A model generated the notes under the pieces. That model did no database searches. It saw nothing but the letters and a program-made list of their open reading frames with translations, and had not been told where the DNA came from. The position numbers and the translations under genes were made by a program. From Flagellimonas beolgyonensis (GTDB taxonomy: Bacteria > Bacteroidota > Bacteroidia > Flavobacteriales > Flavobacteriaceae), in NCBI RefSeq assembly GCF_003992615.1, contig NZ_RZMY01000013.1:226238-290237 (forward strand): DNA of 64,000 nt. Direction: 5' to 3'. Positions 39,170 through 47,403 of the stretch are shown one piece after another. How positions within the stretch are numbered: position 1 is the stretch's first letter; each line of letters starts with the position of its first letter.

Positions 39170-40846
39170 TTAAAACAAATCAGTTACACAGCCTTTGGAT
39201 GCTGACGATACTGTTTTGGCATATTTATACAAACTTCCCGATTTGATCTTCAACTCGGGCTGTTTCCATTCTTTTCTGCGTTGTTCCAACTCTTCGTCGG
39301 AAATGTTGATGTCGATCGTATTGTTCACCGCATCAATGGTTATGGTGTCTCCATCCTTTACCAGGGCAATCCCCCCACCCACTTGGGCTTCGGGCGAAAC
39401 GTGACCGACCACAAATCCATGGGATCCACCCGAAAAACGACCATCGGTGATCAACGCAACATCCTTGCCCAAACCGGCACCCATAATGGCGGAGGTCGGT
39501 TTCAGCATTTCTGGCATACCAGGGGCTCCTTTTGGTCCTTCGTATCGGATTACCACAACATCGCCTTTCTTCACTTTTCCGTTATGGATTCCTTGGTTCA
39601 CCTCAACTTCACTGTTAAAAACCCGTGCGGTTCCTGTAAAACTAAGCCCTTCCTTGCCTGTAATTTTGGCTACCGCTCCCTCTGTGGCCAAATTGCCATA
39701 TAGAATCCGGATATGCCCGGTTTCTTTTATAGGTTGGTCTATTGGTCGGATAATATCCTGGCCTTCCGCCAAATCGGGCGCATCCAATAGATTTTCTGCC
39801 AAGGTTTTTCCTGTCACTGTCATACAATCGCCATGCAGCAATCCTTTCTTCAACATATATTTAAGCACGGCCGGTACACCTCCAATTTTATGCAGGTCTT
39901 CCATCAAATACTTTCCACTGGGCTTTAAATCGGCCAACAAAGGGGTATTTTCACTGATTCGGGTGATGTCTTCCAAAGTGAAATCGACCTCCGCAGCATG
40001 TGCAATGGCCATAAAGTGCAACACGGCATTCGTGGAACCACCCAAAACTGTAACCAATCGGAAGGCATTCTCCAATGCTTTTTTGGTAACGATATCCTTC
40101 GGTTTAAGATCCATTTCCAAAAGGTTCAGCAATGCGGCACCTGAGGATTCGCAATCGGCTCCCTTGGCTTCGTTTACCGCTGGTATGGATGAATTGAAGG
40201 GCAATGACATTCCCATGGCTTCAATGGCAGAGGCCATGGTATTGGCCGTGTACATACCACCGCAGGCGCCTGCCCCTGGGCAAGCTTTGTGGATAACCGC
40301 CTTGTATTCGGTCTCATCTATGGTACCGGCCACTTTCTGTCCGTAAGCCTCAAAAGCGGAAATGATGTCCAGTTTCTTGTTGTTATGGCACCCCGGTGCA
40401 ATGGTACCGCCATACACCAAAATGGAGGGGCGGTTCAAACGCAGCTGCGCCATTAAAGCACCTGGCATGTTTTTATCACAACCCACCACGGTCACCAAAC
40501 CGTCATAGCTCATGGCCTGCACCACGGTTTCAATGGAATCGGCAATAATATCCCTGGATGGCAAGGAGTAGCGCATACCCGGCGTGCCGTTTGAAATACC
40601 GTCACTCACTCCAATCGTATTGAATATGAGTCCGACCATATTGGTGGACTCCACTCCCTTTTTCACTTCCAGGGCCAATTGATTGAGGTGCATGTTGCAA
40701 GGGTTGCCCTCATAACCTGTACTTGCAATTCCTATTAAGGGTTTTTGTAGGTCTTCATCAGTCAACCCGATGGCGTGCAACATGGCCTGGGCGGCAGGCA
40801 ACGTTGGATCTTGGGTCACACTTTTACTAAACTTGTTCAATTCCAT
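39170..40846 (-). CDS. ilvD: Dihydroxy-acid dehydratase
   Basis: Fe-S dehydratase forming 2-oxoisovalerate and 2-oxo-3-methylvalerate. From ATG 40846 it is 558 residues (the TTG two codons upstream is less likely). Cluster cysteines occur in GNPCNMHL (about 50), [11 protein letters not shown] (about 118) and [17 protein letters not shown] (about 190); the C-terminal beta-barrel has [21 protein letters not shown]. First gene of the ilv operon, with a probable promoter just upstream. Confidence 0.97.
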
Positions 40847-40896
40847 TGTCAAATTTCATTCAAATACAGAATTCCACTGAATTTTATACTGTAATT

Positions 40897-40924
40897 CAAA
40901 GATAGATGTTTAAAAAGCCTCAAA
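40897..40924 (-). promoter_or_regulatory. Putative ilvD operon promoter
   Basis: On the minus strand, TTTG (complement of 40921-40924), a 16-base spacer and TATCTTTG (complement of 40897-40904), an exact TAnnTTTG. The spacer is slightly short of the usual ~19-20. The ilvD ATG is 50 bases downstream. Confidence 0.4.
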
Positions 40925-41036
40925 TTTTTAACAGTCTTTGCGTGTTTAAATCCACTGGAAACATAATATACTTATATAATTGAATATCAATATTTTAGAT
41001 TAATTCAAAATCCAACATTCAATTATTTTTATTGAA

Positions 41037-41076
41037 AAGAAAAAGGGCCTGCATCCATCGAGATACAGGCCCTTTT
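41037..41076. terminator. Bidirectional terminator after the pxp operon
   Basis: Stem AAAGGGCCTG (41041-41050) with CAGGCCCTTT (41065-41074), 14-base loop, with T-rich tracts on both strands. It lies ~105 bases beyond the pxpC stop and upstream of the ilvD promoter. Confidence 0.8.
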
Positions 41077-41182
41077 TAGCAACAAGCAATCTGTATCACC
41101 CCTTAATCGGAGCAATAATGACCACATTGTTGATTAGGATATTTCCTTCCATAGTCCAACGATACAAAAAATAACTGGGAAT

Positions 41183-42022
41183 CTACAACAGCTTAAAGGT
41201 TAATTTGTCGCCCGATTTCTTTTGGGCCAGGGTACAAATGGAAGCTTCCGACAATTGTAAAACCCTTGGGTAGCCTCCAGTCGTCTGCCCATCTTTCATC
41301 AAGACGATCAATCGACCTGCCGGTGTTAGTTGCACCGATCCTGGCAAGGTGCCCGAAGTGAGCATGGAATGGGAATGGCCTTCAATCAATTCTGCCATTT
41401 GATAAGCCATTCGATTGTTTTCCTTGGAGACCGAGAATGAGGAATCGAAAATTTGATTGAGTTGGGCATCGGTCAGTAGGTCGAACTCTGGACCTTTATG
41501 AACCATCAACTCGTCATGATGGTAATGCTCTTCAATCTTCACCTCAGAAATCATGGGATTATAGGAATCGAACGCCTTATAAGGCACCTCATCCCCGTCC
41601 TTTAGGCGTTTGGTGGCAGTAACCGGGATGAACTGAGAACGGCTACCCATGATTTTTTCCGTTAAAAATCCGCCTTTTATGGCCAAATAGGATCTAAAAC
41701 CGTCTGTTAACCGGCCATACGACAATATATCCCCCTTTTCCACCTTCACCACTTCATAATTTTCCAAGGGATGGTTGTTCAATGTTGCGGAAAGGTGCGC
41801 GCCCGTCAAACAGATATAGGTTGGATCATGGAATTCAAGGGTTGGGCCGGTCATTGTAATTTCCAAAACGGCATCGTTGGGGTCATTTTCCAACAACAGG
41901 TTTGCTTTTTTCACGGAATCCGAGTCCATCGCACCTGAGATAGGCACTCCAATATCACGATATCCAAATCTACCCAAATCTTGTATGGAGATAAAAAATC
42001 CAGATTTCAGCACTTTAAGCAT
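41183..42022 (-). CDS. pxpC: 5-oxoprolinase subunit C (biotin-dependent carboxyltransferase-like)
   Basis: A 279-residue AHS2-domain protein (KipA/allophanate-hydrolase subunit 2 family). With PxpA and PxpB it forms the ATP-dependent prokaryotic 5-oxoprolinase converting the damage product 5-oxoproline to glutamate. Seen: IQDLGRFGYRDIGVPISGAMDSDSV (about 13-37), LEITMTGPTLEF, and GQTTGGYPRVLQLSEA near the end. Overlaps the end of pxpB by 8 bases. Last gene of nramp-pxpA-pxpB-pxpC. Confidence 0.93.
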   Translation of the reverse strand: MLKVLKSGFFISIQDLGRFGYRDIGVPISGAMDSDSVKKANLLLENDPNDAVLEITMTGPTLEFHDPTYICLTGAHLSATLNNHPLENYEVVKVEKGDILSYGRLTDGFRSYLAIKGGFLTEKIMGSRSQFIPVTATKRLKDGDEVPYKAFDSYNPMISEVKIEEHYHHDELMVHKGPEFDLLTDAQLNQIFDSSFSVSKENNRMAYQMAELIEGHSHSMLTSGTLPGSVQLTPAGRLIVLMKDGQTTGGYPRVLQLSEASICTLAQKKSGDKLTFKLL

Positions 42023-42749
42023 TCAAAACGGTCTTTTCTGGTTGATAAATGCCCACTTCCGCCTCTATAATGTGGAGTTTGTATTCGGCCTTGGATATTT
42101 TTTCGAACTGTATCTTATCGCCCACTTTCACAAAGCAAGGTTGTTTGGCCGATGGATTGAAAAGGGAAACCGGACAATTTCCGATAATGTTCCATCCACC
42201 CGGTGAATCCTGCGGATAGATTCCTGTCTGTTTTCCTGCCAATCCAACGGAGCCTTTAGCCACCTGCAAACGAGGTTCGGCCCTTCTAGGAATTTCCAAG
42301 GATTGGGGCAATCCTCCCAAATACATAAAGCCCGGTAAAAAGCCAATACCATACACCACATATTGGTGTGATGTATGCTGTGCAATCAATTCTTCCACCG
42401 AAAGATGAAGCGAATCGGCCACCGACGCTATGTCCATACCGAATTCCGGGTCGTAACAAACAGGCAAGGTCCAAAGATGGCGCACTCGTTTGGATTCGGT
42501 GTTAAATCGGTTGCTATAACATTCCAAAAGCAAGGTTTTGGTTTCCTCAAAATCCAAATGATCCTGATTATAGACCATGGTGACGGAATTGTAGGCCACA
42601 GACATTTCCCAACCTTTAATTTTCAATGCTTTAAAGGCATCCATAAAAATCAGGATGTCTTCCAAAATGGTTTCTTTTACTTCGTTGGGCCATTCCATAA
42701 GAACGGCCCGCTCTCCAAAGGGTTTTATGCTGATGGGGTAACTTTTCAC
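42015..42749 (-). CDS. pxpB: 5-oxoprolinase subunit B
   Basis: A 244-residue AHS1-domain protein (KipI/allophanate-hydrolase subunit 1 family). Seen: FGERAVLMEWPN at the start, PVCYDPEFGMDIASVADSL, GIGFLPGFMYLGGLPQSLEIPRRAEPRLQVAKGSVGLAGKQ (split for length; about 134-175), TGIYPQDSPGGWNIIGNCPV. These are hallmark stretches. It overlaps pxpA by 4 bases and pxpC by 8, so translation is coupled. Cytosolic. Confidence 0.93.
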   Translation of the reverse strand: MKSYPISIKPFGERAVLMEWPNEVKETILEDILIFMDAFKALKIKGWEMSVAYNSVTMVYNQDHLDFEETKTLLLECYSNRFNTESKRVRHLWTLPVCYDPEFGMDIASVADSLHLSVEELIAQHTSHQYVVYGIGFLPGFMYLGGLPQSLEIPRRAEPRLQVAKGSVGLAGKQTGIYPQDSPGGWNIIGNCPVSLFNPSAKQPCFVKVGDKIQFEKISKAEYKLHIIEAEVGIYQPEKTVLNA

Positions 42750-43489
42750 TGATGTATCTTAACCTGGTGATTTGGTAATTCTGTTGAAAGATACATCAAT
42801 ATTTCCAATGCCGAGGAAGTGTCGCCGTGCACGCACAAGGTTTGCACTTCTATGGGGACCAACTGGTCCGAAATGGTAAGTACCCTGTTTTCACAAATCA
42901 TCGGTAAGACATGGTTCAGGACCTCTTCTGGTCGATGTATCAAGGCTTTATCGGACTTTCGGGAGACCAAGCTAAGATCTGGATTGTAATTCCTATCCGC
43001 AAATCCTTCAAACCACAGTTCAAAACCTTGCGCTTTCGCCAAACTGGCAATCACCGAACCATAGGGTACATATACTATTGCCCTTGTCCTATATTCGGAA
43101 ATGGCATTGAGATAATTTTGTGCCAATTCCTCATTTTTGGCGGTTTCATTATACAGTGCACCATGGGCCTTAATATGGTGCAGCTTCCCGTTGATTTCTT
43201 CCAAAATACCATCAAAGGTCGCCAATTGATTCTTGATGCTTGCTGAAAGTGCTTCGTTGGAAATATCCATCACTTCCCTTCCAAAATTCGGCTTGTCCGG
43301 ATACGAAGGATGTGCCCCTATCTTGACCTGATGCTGTTGGGCCAATGCTGTAATGCTACGCATGGTGGCTTCATCACCGGCGTGTCCACCACAGGCGATG
43401 TTACAAGAACTGATATATGGAAAAAGGTCGGGCTCATTGCCCACGCCCTCCCCTACATCACAGTTGATATCGATAACAAATGGTTTCAT
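42746..43489 (-). CDS. pxpA: 5-oxoprolinase subunit A
   Basis: A 247-residue LamB/YcsF family protein. The N-terminus carries the family signature DINCDVGEGVGNEP and ISSCNIACGGHAGDEATM (about 6-40), and the protein ends with CVHGDTSSALEIL. It is the subunit binding oxoproline in the current model. It overlaps the transporter upstream by 4 bases. Confidence 0.95.
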   Translation of the reverse strand: MKPFVIDINCDVGEGVGNEPDLFPYISSCNIACGGHAGDEATMRSITALAQQHQVKIGAHPSYPDKPNFGREVMDISNEALSASIKNQLATFDGILEEINGKLHHIKAHGALYNETAKNEELAQNYLNAISEYRTRAIVYVPYGSVIASLAKAQGFELWFEGFADRNYNPDLSLVSRKSDKALIHRPEEVLNHVLPMICENRVLTISDQLVPIEVQTLCVHGDTSSALEILMYLSTELPNHQVKIHQ

Positions 43490-44682
43490 ATAGTCCCCAC
43501 TACCTTTAGTATACTCTTAATGCCCAAAAACAGGGAAAACAAGACAATGGCCCATCCAAAAATGTTCTGCACAAGTGAATTTGCATTGGCGCCCATCACG
43601 TCTTTCTTATTTACCACCCAAAGCAGTAACAAGGCCATTACGGGCAATAAAATACCATTGGCCACTTGGGCAAATTGAATAACTTGAATCGGTTTAACAT
43701 CGAAGGAAAGAAAAACAACACCGCAAAACAATACCGTGGTCCAAACCAGCTTGAAACGTTTGTCCTGCATCCCTCCTTTCCAGCCAAAACAACTACTGGC
43801 AACAAAGGCCGCTGCCAGTGGAGCAGTGATCGCTGAAGTTATTCCGGCGGCCAACAAGCCAAAGGCCATGAAATAGAGTGCCATTTTACCAAATAACGGT
43901 TCCAGTCCCTTTGCCATATCCAATGCATTGTCAATATAGGCAATGGGTGCCGCCGCTGCGGTTACCAAAATAGCAATGGATACCAGCCCCCCCAAAGCGA
44001 TGGAAATTATGGTATCCCATTTTACAATATTTAGATCCTCTTTCGATTGCCATTTTTCCTTGACCAAGGAAGCGTGCAAAAACAGGTTGTAGGGTACCAC
44101 AGTGGTACCCACCAAGGCAATTACCGTCAACAAACTGCCTTTAGGCAACTTGGGCACCAAGGCCCCTTTTACAATTTCATTCAAAGATGGTTTGGTCAAT
44201 AGGGCACAGATAACAAAACTCACCCCCATAAGGGCGACCAATCCGATAAATAGGCGCTCCAATACCTTATAATTACTGAACCACAACAAAAGAAAAATTA
44301 CAATGCCAATAATGGCGGGCAGAAAGGGTCTAATTTGAGGAAAGGGAAGTAATTGTTCCAGACCTAATGTAGCCCCACCAATATTGCCGCCCTCATAAGC
44401 TGCATTGCCGATCAATATTGCACCCAAAACAATGATCAAAACCAAGTTTTTAAGCCAAGGTGTCTTGAGTTGGTCCTTAACCACATCCACCAATCCTTGT
44501 TGGGTTACCACGCCAATTCGCCCTGCCATTCCCTGCAAAACAATGGTGGCCAAAACGGACACTAGAAGGGCCCAAATCAATGAATAGCCAAATTGCACTC
44601 CAGCCAGGGTGCACATCGTCAACGTTCCTGGGCCAACAAAGGCTGCCGCGACCAATATACCGGGTCCTAATTTTTTGAGCAT
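43486..44682 (-). CDS. Nramp-family transporter lacking the canonical metal motifs (YcsG-like)
   Basis: A 398-residue, roughly 11-helix membrane protein of the Nramp (SLC11) fold and first gene of the pxp operon. In manganese/iron Nramps, helix 1 has DPGN and helix 6 has MPH(N). Here helix 1 reads V-G-P-G-T-L-T (residues 16-22; Asp replaced by Gly17 and Asn by Thr20) and helix 6 reads V-V-P-Y-N (about 195-199; Met and His replaced by Val and Tyr). Both metal-binding sets are therefore missing. Bacillus subtilis has the same association: ycsG beside ycsF (pxpA) in the kip cluster. Substrate is unknown; 5-oxoproline or a cation such as Mg2+ are candidates, not shown. Confidence 0.88.
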   Translation of the reverse strand: MLKKLGPGILVAAAFVGPGTLTMCTLAGVQFGYSLIWALLVSVLATIVLQGMAGRIGVVTQQGLVDVVKDQLKTPWLKNLVLIIVLGAILIGNAAYEGGNIGGATLGLEQLLPFPQIRPFLPAIIGIVIFLLLWFSNYKVLERLFIGLVALMGVSFVICALLTKPSLNEIVKGALVPKLPKGSLLTVIALVGTTVVPYNLFLHASLVKEKWQSKEDLNIVKWDTIISIALGGLVSIAILVTAAAAPIAYIDNALDMAKGLEPLFGKMALYFMAFGLLAAGITSAITAPLAAAFVASSCFGWKGGMQDKRFKLVWTTVLFCGVVFLSFDVKPIQVIQFAQVANGILLPVMALLLLWVVNKKDVMGANANSLVQNIFGWAIVLFSLFLGIKSILKVVGTI

Positions 44683-44864
44683 TTGAATAGTTGGTTTGTG
44701 GTGTTGAAATTAACAGGATATTGGGACAAACCATGTATTTCATCCAAAAAAATGCATTTCGTCTAAAAGTGGGGTGTTTTACATCGACAATTTATACGAT
44801 TTTGAAAAAGGCAAAGTTATAATAGTCCCAAATCGAACTTTGACCTTAAACTTTGCAAGTACTT

Positions 44865-45308
44865 ATGACATGTAAGGATTGTGACAAGCGTATAGAACAC
44901 CAACAATTTGAAAATTCCATGGAGTCGCTGGGTGTTCCTCTTTGCGATAGACATTCCCGTCTTATTAAAAAAGTGATCCTGGACAACGACACCCCGATCG
45001 AGGCCATTCACTTATTCTATGCCCTAAAGGAAGCCGGAGCGCATCCCATGTTGGAATGGTGGGATGGTAAAAAATCAGTGGATATCGCCATTTCCCGGGT
45101 AAAACTCAACATCGAAATCGATAAGGATTATAACATGATCACGCACGAACAGGCCATTAATGACCTGGAAGATGCCATGCACTCCTTTAAAAATGGGTTT
45201 ACCACAATCCGGATTCCCCATTTGGCCATTAAGTACTATTTGGAGGATACCGTAAAGAACATTCTCGGCATTATTTCCGGACTAAGGGCCAACATCAAGG
45301 CCATTTAG
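44865..45308 (+). CDS. Unknown protein: putative zinc knuckle plus PD-(D/E)XK-like domain
   Basis: A 147-residue protein I do not recognise by name. From ATG 44865 it starts MTCKDCDKRIE, and a second Cys/His pair (PLCDRHSRLIKK, about 28-39) could complete a Cys3-His zinc site. The rest follows a restriction-endonuclease-like pattern: MLEWWDGKKSVDIAI (Glu, then Asp), KLNIEIDKDYNMIT (E-I-D strand), then an EQAINDLEDAMHSF helix, reminiscent of DUF559/Vsr-type PD-(D/E)XK proteins. The final lysine of the motif is replaced by Asp, so activity is uncertain. Its stop overlaps the stop of the convergent cupin gene by 4 bases. No methylase is near. Confidence 0.6.
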   Translation: MTCKDCDKRIEHQQFENSMESLGVPLCDRHSRLIKKVILDNDTPIEAIHLFYALKEAGAHPMLEWWDGKKSVDIAISRVKLNIEIDKDYNMITHEQAINDLEDAMHSFKNGFTTIRIPHLAIKYYLEDTVKNILGIISGLRANIKAI

Positions 45309-45715
45309 TTGCAAAAGATATTGCTTGTGTCCTTTTGTGCTTGTTTATATTCCAGAATATTGATGACAATCGGGAATTCACCGATATTCTCGAGGTCGTT
45401 CACATAATTTTTGCCACAGTGCTCAAAAAATTCTGAATCGCCTGGCTCCAATTTCAGCATGTCTATTTTGCCATTGCCATACCTGGTCAACGCCAATCCA
45501 CCCGTGGTACATGCCATCACGTAATTGGAATTATGTCTTCTAAAAGGTATCCGCTCCCCAGGCAGCAGGATCAAATCCCACAACTTCATGTTTTCATTTT
45601 CGAACACCAGTGTATTACTTAGGGCATCCGAAATATCTTGACGCAGCAACTCATCCAGCTTCTCCTGTTCCCATGGATCAAAGTTGCCCACCGGGTTCAA
45701 TTCTACACATTGCAT
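45305..45715 (-). CDS. Small cupin-like protein
   Basis: A 136-residue single-domain protein with cupin-type beta-strands: LWDLILLPGERIPFRRHNSNYVMACTTGG (first motif region) and MLKLEPGDSEFFEHCGKNYVNDLEN (second). Metal-ligand histidines are few (RRHNS, EHCG), so metal binding is uncertain. ATG 45715 is preferred because a real Shine-Dalgarno (AAAGGAG) lies five bases upstream, which is unusual here. The longer TTG start at 45742 would overlap that SD. Substrate unknown; no operon partners. Confidence 0.65.
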   Translation of the reverse strand: MQCVELNPVGNFDPWEQEKLDELLRQDISDALSNTLVFENENMKLWDLILLPGERIPFRRHNSNYVMACTTGGLALTRYGNGKIDMLKLEPGDSEFFEHCGKNYVNDLENIGEFPIVINILEYKQAQKDTSNIFCN

Positions 45716-45975
45716 TTGTTCTCCTTTAAAAAATGGCGGCAAAGATAGGATTGTTTACGAATCAAATTGATTGAATTTGAACAGTTTAACTCATTTTTTG
45801 CGTTTTTAAAACCCTTGAGCCACAGGATTGTTGAATTCATTTTGAAACCCTTAAAAAATTAATGGGTCGAAAATCAATGGAAAGTAAGGTGTCTAACCAA
45901 ATTTTCAATAATTTGTAGCTCTTGTGGGCTGGCTGTTCATCCAACCGGTCACAAACCAACCAAAAAAACCTATTC

Positions 45976-47403
45976 ATGAAAAAATTACTTCTGGGCCTTT
46001 TGGCCGTTATCGTGGTTGTTGGAGCCTTATTGATCTTCAACACCTTATCGCTATCATCCAAACAAGTGGCCCCAGAGCCTTTGGAAGCCATGATTTTTCC
46101 CGATTCGGCATATTACAACCTTTCCAAGGCCATTCAGTTTAAAACCATTTCCTTTGGCGAAGATGCGATACCCGATTCCACTGCATTTAATGGATTCCAT
46201 GAATTTTTAAGGGAAACCTATCCCTTGGTTCACGAACAACTTTCCCTTGAAAAAATCAATGAGTACAGCTTGCTGTACAAATGGCAAGGGACAGATGCCT
46301 CCAAAAAGCCCATTATACTCATGTCCCATCAGGATGTGGTTCCGGTGGACCAACCCACCCTATCGGATTGGGAAGCACCACCATTTGAAGGACGAATTAC
46401 GGATACCCATATTATTGGTCGGGGAACTTTGGATGATAAGAGTTCGTTAATGGCCCTTATGGAATCGGTTGAAACCTTGCTTCAACAGAATTTCAAACCA
46501 GCCCAGACCATTTATCTGGCGTTTGGCCATGATGAGGAGCTCGGTGGCTCAACCGGAGCCAAAGAAATTGCTGCCCATTTAAAAGCAAAGGGGGTAAATG
46601 CTGCCATGGCACTTGACGAGGGTGGTTTTTTGGCCGTTCAGATGGTCCCTGATTTTGACAAAACCGTGGCCATGGTCAACTTGGCCGAAAAAGGCTATGC
46701 CTCCTTCAACTTGATAGTTGAAACAAGGGGCGGACACAGTTCAGCGCCACCGAAAGACAATACTTTGGGTATGTTGGCCCAAGCCATCGTGGACCTTGAA
46801 AACAATCAATTTCCCTACAAAATGGTGAAGCCGATTGATTACCAATTTGAATATATGGGTGCCGAAATGCCGTTTATGAAGAAACTGGCCTTTGCCAATC
46901 CATGGTTGTTCAAAGGCCCTGTATTAAAAGCGCTCAATGCACATACCACTACTGCCCCAACCATTGTGGAGGGCGGTGTTAAGGACAATGTGATACCCAC
47001 CGTAGGCAAGGCCACCATTAATTTTAGGATATTGCCCGGAGAAACGGTTGCATCGGTAAAAGAACATGTGCAAGAAACTGTGGGCGATAAGATCAAGGTT
47101 GAACTGGCCGGTTTTTCCACTGACCCATCCCCAGTTTCGGGAATTGATTCGGAAGCGTTCAAAAATCTTGAATTGACCATCCGTTCCGTGTTCCCGGAAG
47201 CTGTTGTAGTGCCAGGTCTGATTGGCGGTGGTACGGATGCCCGCTATTTTTATGATGTGGCCGACGATGTCTATCGCTTTTACCCGATTCGACTTGAACC
47301 CGATAGCTATACAAGGTTCCACGGCATCGACGAAAAAATTAGCAAGGAGAATTATCGTGAAATGGTGGAGTTTGCCTATCAATTGATCAAAAAGTTCGGT
47401 TAA
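45976..47403 (+). CDS. M20 family peptidase (carboxypeptidase S-like)
   Basis: A 475-residue zinc peptidase with an N-terminal signal/anchor (MKKLLLGLLAVIVVVGALLIF). Metal-site motifs: LMSHQDVVPV (about 115), GRGTLDDKSS (bridging Asp, about 152), FGHDEELGGSTG (Glu pair, about 185), and GGGTDARYF near the end. The dimerisation domain contains RGGHSSAPP (about 254). This is the CPS1/PM20D1-like M20A branch, including carboxypeptidases and N-acyl-amino-acid hydrolases. The start is MKK at 45976, not the in-frame ATG 18 codons upstream, because a signal peptide must be N-terminal. The upstream gap (45716-45975) shows no gene. Confidence 0.88.
   Translation: MKKLLLGLLAVIVVVGALLIFNTLSLSSKQVAPEPLEAMIFPDSAYYNLSKAIQFKTISFGEDAIPDSTAFNGFHEFLRETYPLVHEQLSLEKINEYSLLYKWQGTDASKKPIILMSHQDVVPVDQPTLSDWEAPPFEGRITDTHIIGRGTLDDKSSLMALMESVETLLQQNFKPAQTIYLAFGHDEELGGSTGAKEIAAHLKAKGVNAAMALDEGGFLAVQMVPDFDKTVAMVNLAEKGYASFNLIVETRGGHSSAPPKDNTLGMLAQAIVDLENNQFPYKMVKPIDYQFEYMGAEMPFMKKLAFANPWLFKGPVLKALNAHTTTAPTIVEGGVKDNVIPTVGKATINFRILPGETVASVKEHVQETVGDKIKVELAGFSTDPSPVSGIDSEAFKNLELTIRSVFPEAVVVPGLIGGGTDARYFYDVADDVYRFYPIRLEPDSYTRFHGIDEKISKENYREMVEFAYQLIKKFG

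Follow-up and report, generated by a model that had tools for sequence, protein, structure and literature searches.

What does a protein of the Nramp family carry when its gene opens an operon for 5-oxoprolinase? Databases label the relatives of such proteins as metal transporters, and the literature on YcsG-type proteins is split between 5-oxoproline and manganese. The question is raised by a 64,000-nucleotide stretch of the Flagellimonas beolgyonensis genome (here called the window; contig NZ_RZMY01000013.1, positions 226,238 to 290,237), which encodes on its minus strand, at positions 43486 to 44682, an Nramp-related transporter of 398 amino acids (aa) with an ATG start. We consider it likely, with good confidence, that this protein is a LeuT-fold secondary importer of 5-oxoproline (pyroglutamate) for the co-encoded PxpABC, a ligand deduced from gene linkage, co-occurrence across genomes, and an exchange of partner enzymes. 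PxpABC is 5-oxoprolinase, which opens the ring of 5-oxoproline to yield glutamate in an ATP-dependent reaction.

The operon order is transporter-pxpA-pxpB-pxpC, all on the minus strand. The transporter stop codon and the pxpA start codon share the letters ATGA (43486 to 43489), a 4-nucleotide overlap that is consistent with translational coupling. Next come pxpA itself (42746 to 43489; 5-oxoprolinase subunit A, LamB/YcsF, 247 aa), pxpB (42015 to 42749; subunit B, 244 aa), and pxpC (41183 to 42022; subunit C, CT_A_B family, 279 aa), with overlaps of 4 and 8 nucleotides at the pxp junctions. The next listed upstream gene (44853 to 45308) lies on the opposite strand, and the transporter is therefore the first gene of the operon. 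This position and the overlap, both claimed in a model-generated reading of the letters alone (the original prediction), are confirmed. As judged by NCBIfam models, PxpA scores above the cutoffs of two PxpA subfamilies and PxpB above its equivalog cutoff, while PxpC, at 202 bits, falls below a 500-bit equivalog cutoff; the Pfam CT_A_B match of PxpC has 249 bits. Neither a Mn riboswitch nor any other Rfam element was found at gathering score within positions 40800 to 46000.

The association extends far beyond this genome. Among the best 80 named Bacteroidota loci, picked by similarity to the window transporter, 77 carry a same-strand pxpA downstream, which lies within 300 nucleotides in 75; in the other three (L144, L161, and L186), there is no pxpA within reach. 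Of 30 genomes sampled from the genus, 29 hold a window-type gene, and pxpA and pxpB adjoin it in all of these. A phylum sample of 198 Bacteroidota genomes, in which the close type was defined as at least 44% identity to the window transporter, revealed pxpA in 30 of 30 close-type genomes versus 17 of the 168 others (Fisher P = 9e-24, a value overstated by relatedness). Moreover, the close type is linked to pxp genes in 26 of those 30 genomes, in one of them with an inverted gene between. In two Kordia loci (L142:6243-7694 and L145:6219-7673), pxpA and probably pxpB are fused into a single frame about 484 codons long.

Residues at the sites that bind metal in canonical Nramps provide a second line of evidence. 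The window transporter matches Pfam Nramp at 297 bits and meets the looser name model NF037982, "Nramp family divalent metal transporter" (107 versus 50 bits), while falling well short of the MntH models NF001923 (166.5 bits versus a cutoff of 430) and TIGR01197 (116 versus 272.5). For residue counts, one Nramp-like protein was aligned per locus across 217 loci. The window clade comprised 175 rows, of which 164 were distinct after 11 repeats of a gene had been dropped; two more rows (L087 and L179), gapped at residues 17 to 20, were left out of the counts there. The helix-1 break reads GPGT (residues 17 to 20; codons at 44623 to 44634, minus strand, these and the following coordinates being derived from the open reading frame) at the canonical DPGN site. 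All 162 distinct sequences that are readable at these positions have G17-P18-G19, and 161 of them have T20, with a single Ser. The helix-6 break reads VPYN (residues 196 to 199; 44086 to 44097, minus strand) at the canonical MPHN site, and T193, T194, V196, Y198, and N199, as well as N100 of helix 3, are each invariant in 164 of 164. Helix 3 carries Y96-E97-G98-G99-N100 (44383 to 44397, minus strand), where N100 occupies the canonical Glu site and E97 the canonical Asp site; E97 is found in 156 of the 164 sequences and is replaced by Gln in the other 8. In contrast, canonical Nramp loci have D17-P-G-N20, E100, M196, and H198 at the aligned positions, and four loci of the Nramp-related magnesium transporter (NRMT) type have D-A-G-G in helix 1 and W198 in helix 6 (the NDAGG and APW motifs). 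Thus, the canonical Asp, Asn, Met, and His are all substituted in the window clade, as are the helix-3 Glu (E134 of DraNramp) and the Asp of NRMTs, bearing out the exchange of DPGN for GPGT and of MPHN for VPYN that had been read from the single protein. A Gln at residue 97 was also considered as a sign of lost pxp linkage and then dropped because three of the nine Q rows (eight distinct), L062, L083, and L162, are still linked.

The predicted structure keeps the Nramp scaffold. An AlphaFold2 model built from 58 sequences (57 of the best 80 named loci plus the window protein; mean predicted local distance difference test score 84.2, predicted template modeling score 0.84) has helix 1 broken at residues 14 to 17 and helix 6 at residues 195 and 196. 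Its top structural match is the canonical Nramp DraNramp (6d91; Z score 48.1, root mean square deviation 2.5 over 385 residues), in which helices 1 and 6 are broken as well. Further Nramps follow, including EleNRMT at a Z score of 46.1, and other LeuT-fold carriers such as KimA, ApcT, and AdiC lie at about 29 to 30. The model therefore places the window protein in the Nramp (LeuT-type) fold, and a common fold is no demonstration of function. The original prediction had offered, as one option, that the transporter supplies a cation such as Mg2+ to the oxoprolinase, as an NRMT would. EleNRMT is indeed the nearest solved structure by Foldseek E value, at 28 to 29% identity; nevertheless, we give this option next to no probability, since the NDAGG and APW motifs are absent (no Asp at 17, no Trp at 198) and the protein lies outside the NRMT clade. 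The latter point comes from a careful tree of 55 chosen rows (odd or long-branched rows, among them L002, L032, L087, L096, and L097, were left out), in which the window clade forms one side of a branch with support of 92/93, and the canonical Nramps, the NRMTs, and a second pxp-linked group, described below as clade 2, each have support of 100/100. The window protein falls outside both the canonical and the NRMT clades.

Elsewhere in the clade, the transporter is accompanied by a different enzyme. HyuAB (hydantoinase/oxoprolinase) and PxpABC belong to unrelated families, and both are ATP-dependent openers of cyclic amides. Among haloarchaeal relatives of the window protein, for which 23 plasmid records were listed and 12 opened, identity is 42 to 45% in 22 of the 23, and hyuA-hyuB lie directly downstream of the transporter in 10 of the 12; of the remaining two loci, L189 lacks hyuAB and L195 ends with its record. 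These haloarchaeal megaplasmid operons (L033 to L035, L191 to L194, and L196 to L198) usually have a CopG-type regulator upstream, followed by the GPGT transporter, hyuA, and hyuB. The exchange also occurs within Bacteroidota: among 17 window-clade loci at about 32 to 42% identity (the mid-range type), 7 have hyuAB within 1.5 kb, and in two of these 7, hyuA and hyuB are joined in one frame. Because a ring-opening amidohydrolase and a transporter with GPGT and Y198 stay constant while the partner changes, the swap argues for an organic ligand. For a VTYN group (L068, L069, L070, and L073), no common theme emerged among the few neighboring genes scanned.

The same exchange bears on how narrow the ligand range is. 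A broader carrier of cyclic amides or lactams (hydantoins, dihydrouracil, or caprolactam-like compounds), for which 5-oxoproline would be one ligand of several, would suit the hyuAB partners in haloarchaea and Bacteroidota and the racemase-family gene that some of these have as a neighbor, and Mhp1, a protein of the same fold that carries hydantoin, is among the structural matches (4d1a). For the window protein, we regard so broad a range as very improbable, because its own partner is PxpABC, a 5-oxoprolinase, and because helix 6 differs between pxp and hyu partners: VPYNLFLHA in pxp-linked Bacteroidota, VGYNLFLHA in haloarchaea, and VPYN-L/I-FLG in the hyu group of Bacteroidota. That helix 6 varies with the partner enzyme suggests separate specificities. 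Some members of the wider clade may carry related cyclic amides, such as hydantoins, for HyuAB.

A third protein, with a DUF2891 domain (PF11199), recurs beside or near the transporter in many operons of the Flavobacteriia type. It is encoded upstream in 45 of the best 80 named loci and ends within 300 nucleotides of the transporter start in 42 of the 80, frequently overlapping it; a crude pattern detects a lipoprotein-like start in 17 of the 45 proteins. Adjacency or proximity is seen in the L108 to L187 set, which holds these 45 loci, and in L039, L042 to L044, L199, L203, and L072, the last of which has both a HyuAB frame and a transporter of the window clade in the vicinity of DUF2891. At L199:4823-9037, the row consists of DUF2891, a window-type transporter, and gamma-glutamyltranspeptidase, with pxpA elsewhere in the genome. 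A model built from 40 of the 45 DUF2891 genes matches Campylobacter jejuni CJ0554 (8iev/8ieu) at 38 to 39% identity. In C. jejuni, cj0552-4 encode DUF969, DUF979, and DUF2891, and a preliminary growth test is reported in which a mutant lacking them could no longer use 5-oxoproline (PMC12795558). The DUF969/DUF979 system is likewise proposed to take up 5-oxoproline and has DUF2891 adjacent, although it belongs to another transporter family (PMC12795558). DUF2891 thus accompanies two unrelated candidate 5-oxoproline transporters and is likely a further part of 5-oxoproline use. Uptake is also proposed for a tripartite ATP-independent periplasmic (TRAP) system of yet another family, as told in PMC13274462. 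In the phylum sample, 18 of 198 genomes have DUF2891, which stands beside the transporter in 5 of the 5 that also hold the close type. The window clade, then, keeps company with two nonhomologous ATP-dependent ring openers, PxpABC and HyuAB, and with DUF2891. The idea that DUF2891 always adjoins a 5-oxoproline transporter was dropped, as no such neighbor was recognized in 12 of the 18 genomes, for which three membrane-protein neighbors were scanned. In a published Pontixanthobacter comparison, consecutive clusters for HyuB/oxoprolinase, DUF969, DUF979, and DUF2891 co-occur with halotolerance (PMC10040529), and their consecutive numbering hints at a single locus.

How does the window protein relate to YcsG of Bacillus subtilis, which the original prediction invoked for the same association with pxp genes? 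An Nramp-related gene does accompany pxp genes there; it belongs, however, to a different subfamily. The reference for comparison was PDB 9a52, an integrative model of YcsG with FabL, which was absent from the matches of PDB sequence searches; by structural alignment, it is 21% identical to the window model (379 aligned residues in VIA-align, 392 columns in Foldseek). A second clade of Nramp-related proteins ("clade 2," with IGPGFLTQ and VGGTVGGYI) directly adjoins pxpA in 6 of the 17 genomes in which pxpA is found but the close window type is not. The window protein is 20 to 22% identical to 14 clade-2 proteins, 24 to 27% to nine canonical Nramps, 28 to 30% to four NRMT-type proteins, and 34 to 58% to 19 proteins of the window clade, while clade 2 is internally 44 to 84% identical (14 proteins). 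Since 21% is in the clade-2 range rather than in that of the window clade, YcsG fits clade 2 and appears not to be an ortholog of the window protein, a placement that comes from identity in structural alignment. PxpT of Corynebacterium glutamicum is 50% identical to YcsG, and PxpG of Clostridioides difficile is 46% identical to PxpT (PMC13274462); we infer from these published identities that both would belong to clade 2. Acinetobacter baumannii has an unannotated locus that runs transporter-pxpA-268 aa-527 aa-573 aa. This is the gene layout of mumTLUHC (PMC5050338), by which MumT is probably a clade-2 member and MumL probably a PxpA homolog.

Clade 2 resembles the window clade in several respects. 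Those of its proteins that were scanned match Pfam Nramp, pxpA is adjacent or in the same cluster, and helix-1 GPG and equivalents of N100 and Y198 are present in 14 of 14 clade-2 loci; the two clades differ in having GPGF and VGGTVGGYI versus GPGT and VGTTVVPYN. Six of eight opened plasmid-collection loci place clade 2 directly next to pxpA (Rhizobium, Lactiplantibacillus, Acinetobacter, Klebsiella, Gemmobacter, and Paracoccus), and the other two (Deinococcus and Moraxella) have both in one cluster. Four opened proteobacterial loci (L227, L230, L232, and L233) include a divergent regulator of the GntR type, which C. glutamicum has as well. Clade-2 loci by pxpA (L206 to L209, L211, L213, and L226 to L233) occur in Deinococcus, Bacillota, Proteobacteria, and Bacteroidota and are annotated as metal transporters. 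Approximately unbiased (AU) tests rejected neither a tree that holds the two pxp-linked clades together (P = 0.258) nor one that joins the window clade to canonical Nramps (P = 0.496). Clade 2 is present in 7 of the 198 phylum-sample genomes and never co-occurs there with the close type; in 6 of the 7, it adjoins pxpA. A major facilitator superfamily (MFS) transporter lies near the pxp genes in 3 more of the 17 genomes that have pxpA but no close type; two were recognized by Pfam and the third by its similarity to one of those two. Such MFS transporters, in or beside pxp clusters without an Nramp-type transporter (L216 to L218), are candidate replacements for 5-oxoproline uptake. Altogether, the 47 pxpA genomes divide into 30 with the close window type, 6 with clade 2, 3 with a nearby MFS transporter, and 8 with no recognized transporter nearby. 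The wide conservation that the original prediction emphasized hence stands as a recurring pxp association, and proves to involve two separate Nramp-related clades plus, in some genomes, MFS transporters.

Published functional claims about such proteins concern clade 2, the probable place of YcsG, PxpT, and MumT. In C. glutamicum, pxpT is required for growth on 5-oxoproline, although the authors do not rule out metal transport, and they cite a proposal of 5-oxoproline uptake for B. subtilis YcsG (PMC13274462). Others reported ycsG as a Mn importer, renamed it mntG, and pointed out that a polar effect was not fully excluded in the earlier work on 5-oxoproline (PMC10448178). Literature searches turned up no paper on what the window clade does. 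The 5-oxoproline idea is already in print for YcsG and PxpT; the window clade adds a distant second Nramp clade that appears to do the same job, with an independent swap of its enzyme partner.

Several observations count against 5-oxoproline import by the window clade. P values for the genome counts are too strong because the counted genomes are related. Four of the 30 close types lie away from pxp genes, with pxpA elsewhere in the genome, and 8 of the 47 pxpA genomes have no nearby transporter that could be recognized. In 9 of the 17 mid-range loci, no pxp or hyu genes are nearby, and L078 has only part of hyuB, 5 kb off. The substrate of the HyuAB partners is ambiguous between 5-oxoproline and hydantoin, and several haloarchaeal hyu operons add a gene of the arylmalonate-decarboxylase/racemase type. 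The window genome has no DUF2891 gene, and in 12 of the 18 DUF2891 genomes, no 5-oxoproline transporter was recognized as a neighbor, where three membrane-protein neighbors were scanned and DUF969 and DUF979 were not searched as families; two of the scanned neighbors were of the polysaccharide type, and the third, a protein of 467 aa beside the DUF2891 gene of L244, had no Pfam match. The literature searches yielded no transport assay for the window clade. Finally, there are the data on manganese: ycsG overexpression raised cell Mn, and an mntH mntA ycsG triple mutant needs a second ycsG copy (PMC10448178); deletion of mumT delays growth in calprotectin, which added Mn reverses (PMC5050338); and the window genome has no canonical MntH, leaving room for a metal role.

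These last points would be explained if the protein imported Mn2+ (or another transition metal) through unusual ligands and the operon link arose because nitrogen metabolism requires a metal, an idea put forward for YcsG ("MntG") and MumT; the predicted Nramp fold would suit such a role. We nevertheless judge this quite improbable. The canonical metal residues are replaced in every readable distinct window-clade sequence; YcsG (by identity) and MumT (by operon layout) would belong to clade 2; a metal role offers no obvious explanation for the swap to hyuAB; and the window genome encodes FeoB and a ZIP family protein. The window clade is also the cleaner test of the two ideas because it lacks canonical metal ligands and because its enzyme partner was swapped while GPGT and Y198 were kept.

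As a 5-oxoproline importer, the protein would be made together with PxpABC, which would spend ATP to open the imported 5-oxoproline to glutamate. Amino acid carriers of the same superfamily bind the carboxylate of their ligand through the backbone of the unwound helix 1. By analogy, the backbone of the unwound helix-1 GPG might hold the carboxylate of 5-oxoproline, with Y198 and N100 lining the ligand site, and transport would be inward, perhaps with H+ via E97. Direction is not revealed by sequence, and 5-oxoproline arises spontaneously in cells (PMC13274462), so export of 5-oxoproline or glutamate was weighed too. Its chance is slight in the extreme: the operon partner consumes cytoplasmic 5-oxoproline, and C. 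glutamicum pxpT (of clade 2, not the window clade) is required for growth on external 5-oxoproline (PMC13274462).

The assignment of 5-oxoproline may also bear on the Nramp family as a whole. According to Ray et al. (2026), Nramp-related proteins are paraphyletic and lack the metal motif (PMC12873925). An Slc11 "orphan" outgroup, described by Cellier (PMC10606218), has in helix 3 a Tyr and an Asn four residues apart, which match Y96 and N100 of the window protein by spacing; in helix 6, it has a Thr at 228 and a Val and a Tyr (taken as 231 and 233) that match T193, V196, and Y198 in the same way (PMC10606218). From these spacings, the window clade appears to be that outgroup. The main text of PMC10606218 has no mention of YcsG or oxoproline, and its passages on the orphan outgroup name no substrate. 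We put forward, as a plausible yet tentative proposal, that the orphan outgroup consists of importers of 5-oxoproline or cyclic amides that bind their ligand by an unwound helix-1 GPG; that two far-apart Nramp-related clades were recruited to oxoprolinase operons; and that Nramp metal transport may stem beside or from organic-solute carriers. If true, this would give a substrate to the group that serves as the Nramp family outgroup, would bear on the evolution of metal transport inside the amino acid carrier superfamily, and would mean that annotations in Flavobacteriia and haloarchaea need correcting.

A few further observations concern relatives of the window transporter. The nearest named ones among the matches listed are from Allomuricauda and Flagellimonas. 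In viral collections, close relatives were absent from viral contigs, and eight phage records gave matches of only 22 to 26% identity. Within the window genome, two proteins match the Nramp family above the cutoff, namely, the window gene product and a very divergent protein encoded at C14, and thus neither a second copy nor a canonical MntH was found. The divergent gene (C14:198202-199254; L002 and L104) codes for GTSH at the helix-1 site, lacks Tyr198, and is present in most sampled genomes of the genus. Other Nramp-related clades of Bacteroidota also carry nonmetal motifs in helix 1, which are FGPGS-like (L090, L099, and L101), IGTGS (L095, L098, L102, L103, L105, and L107), or FGSGS (L097).

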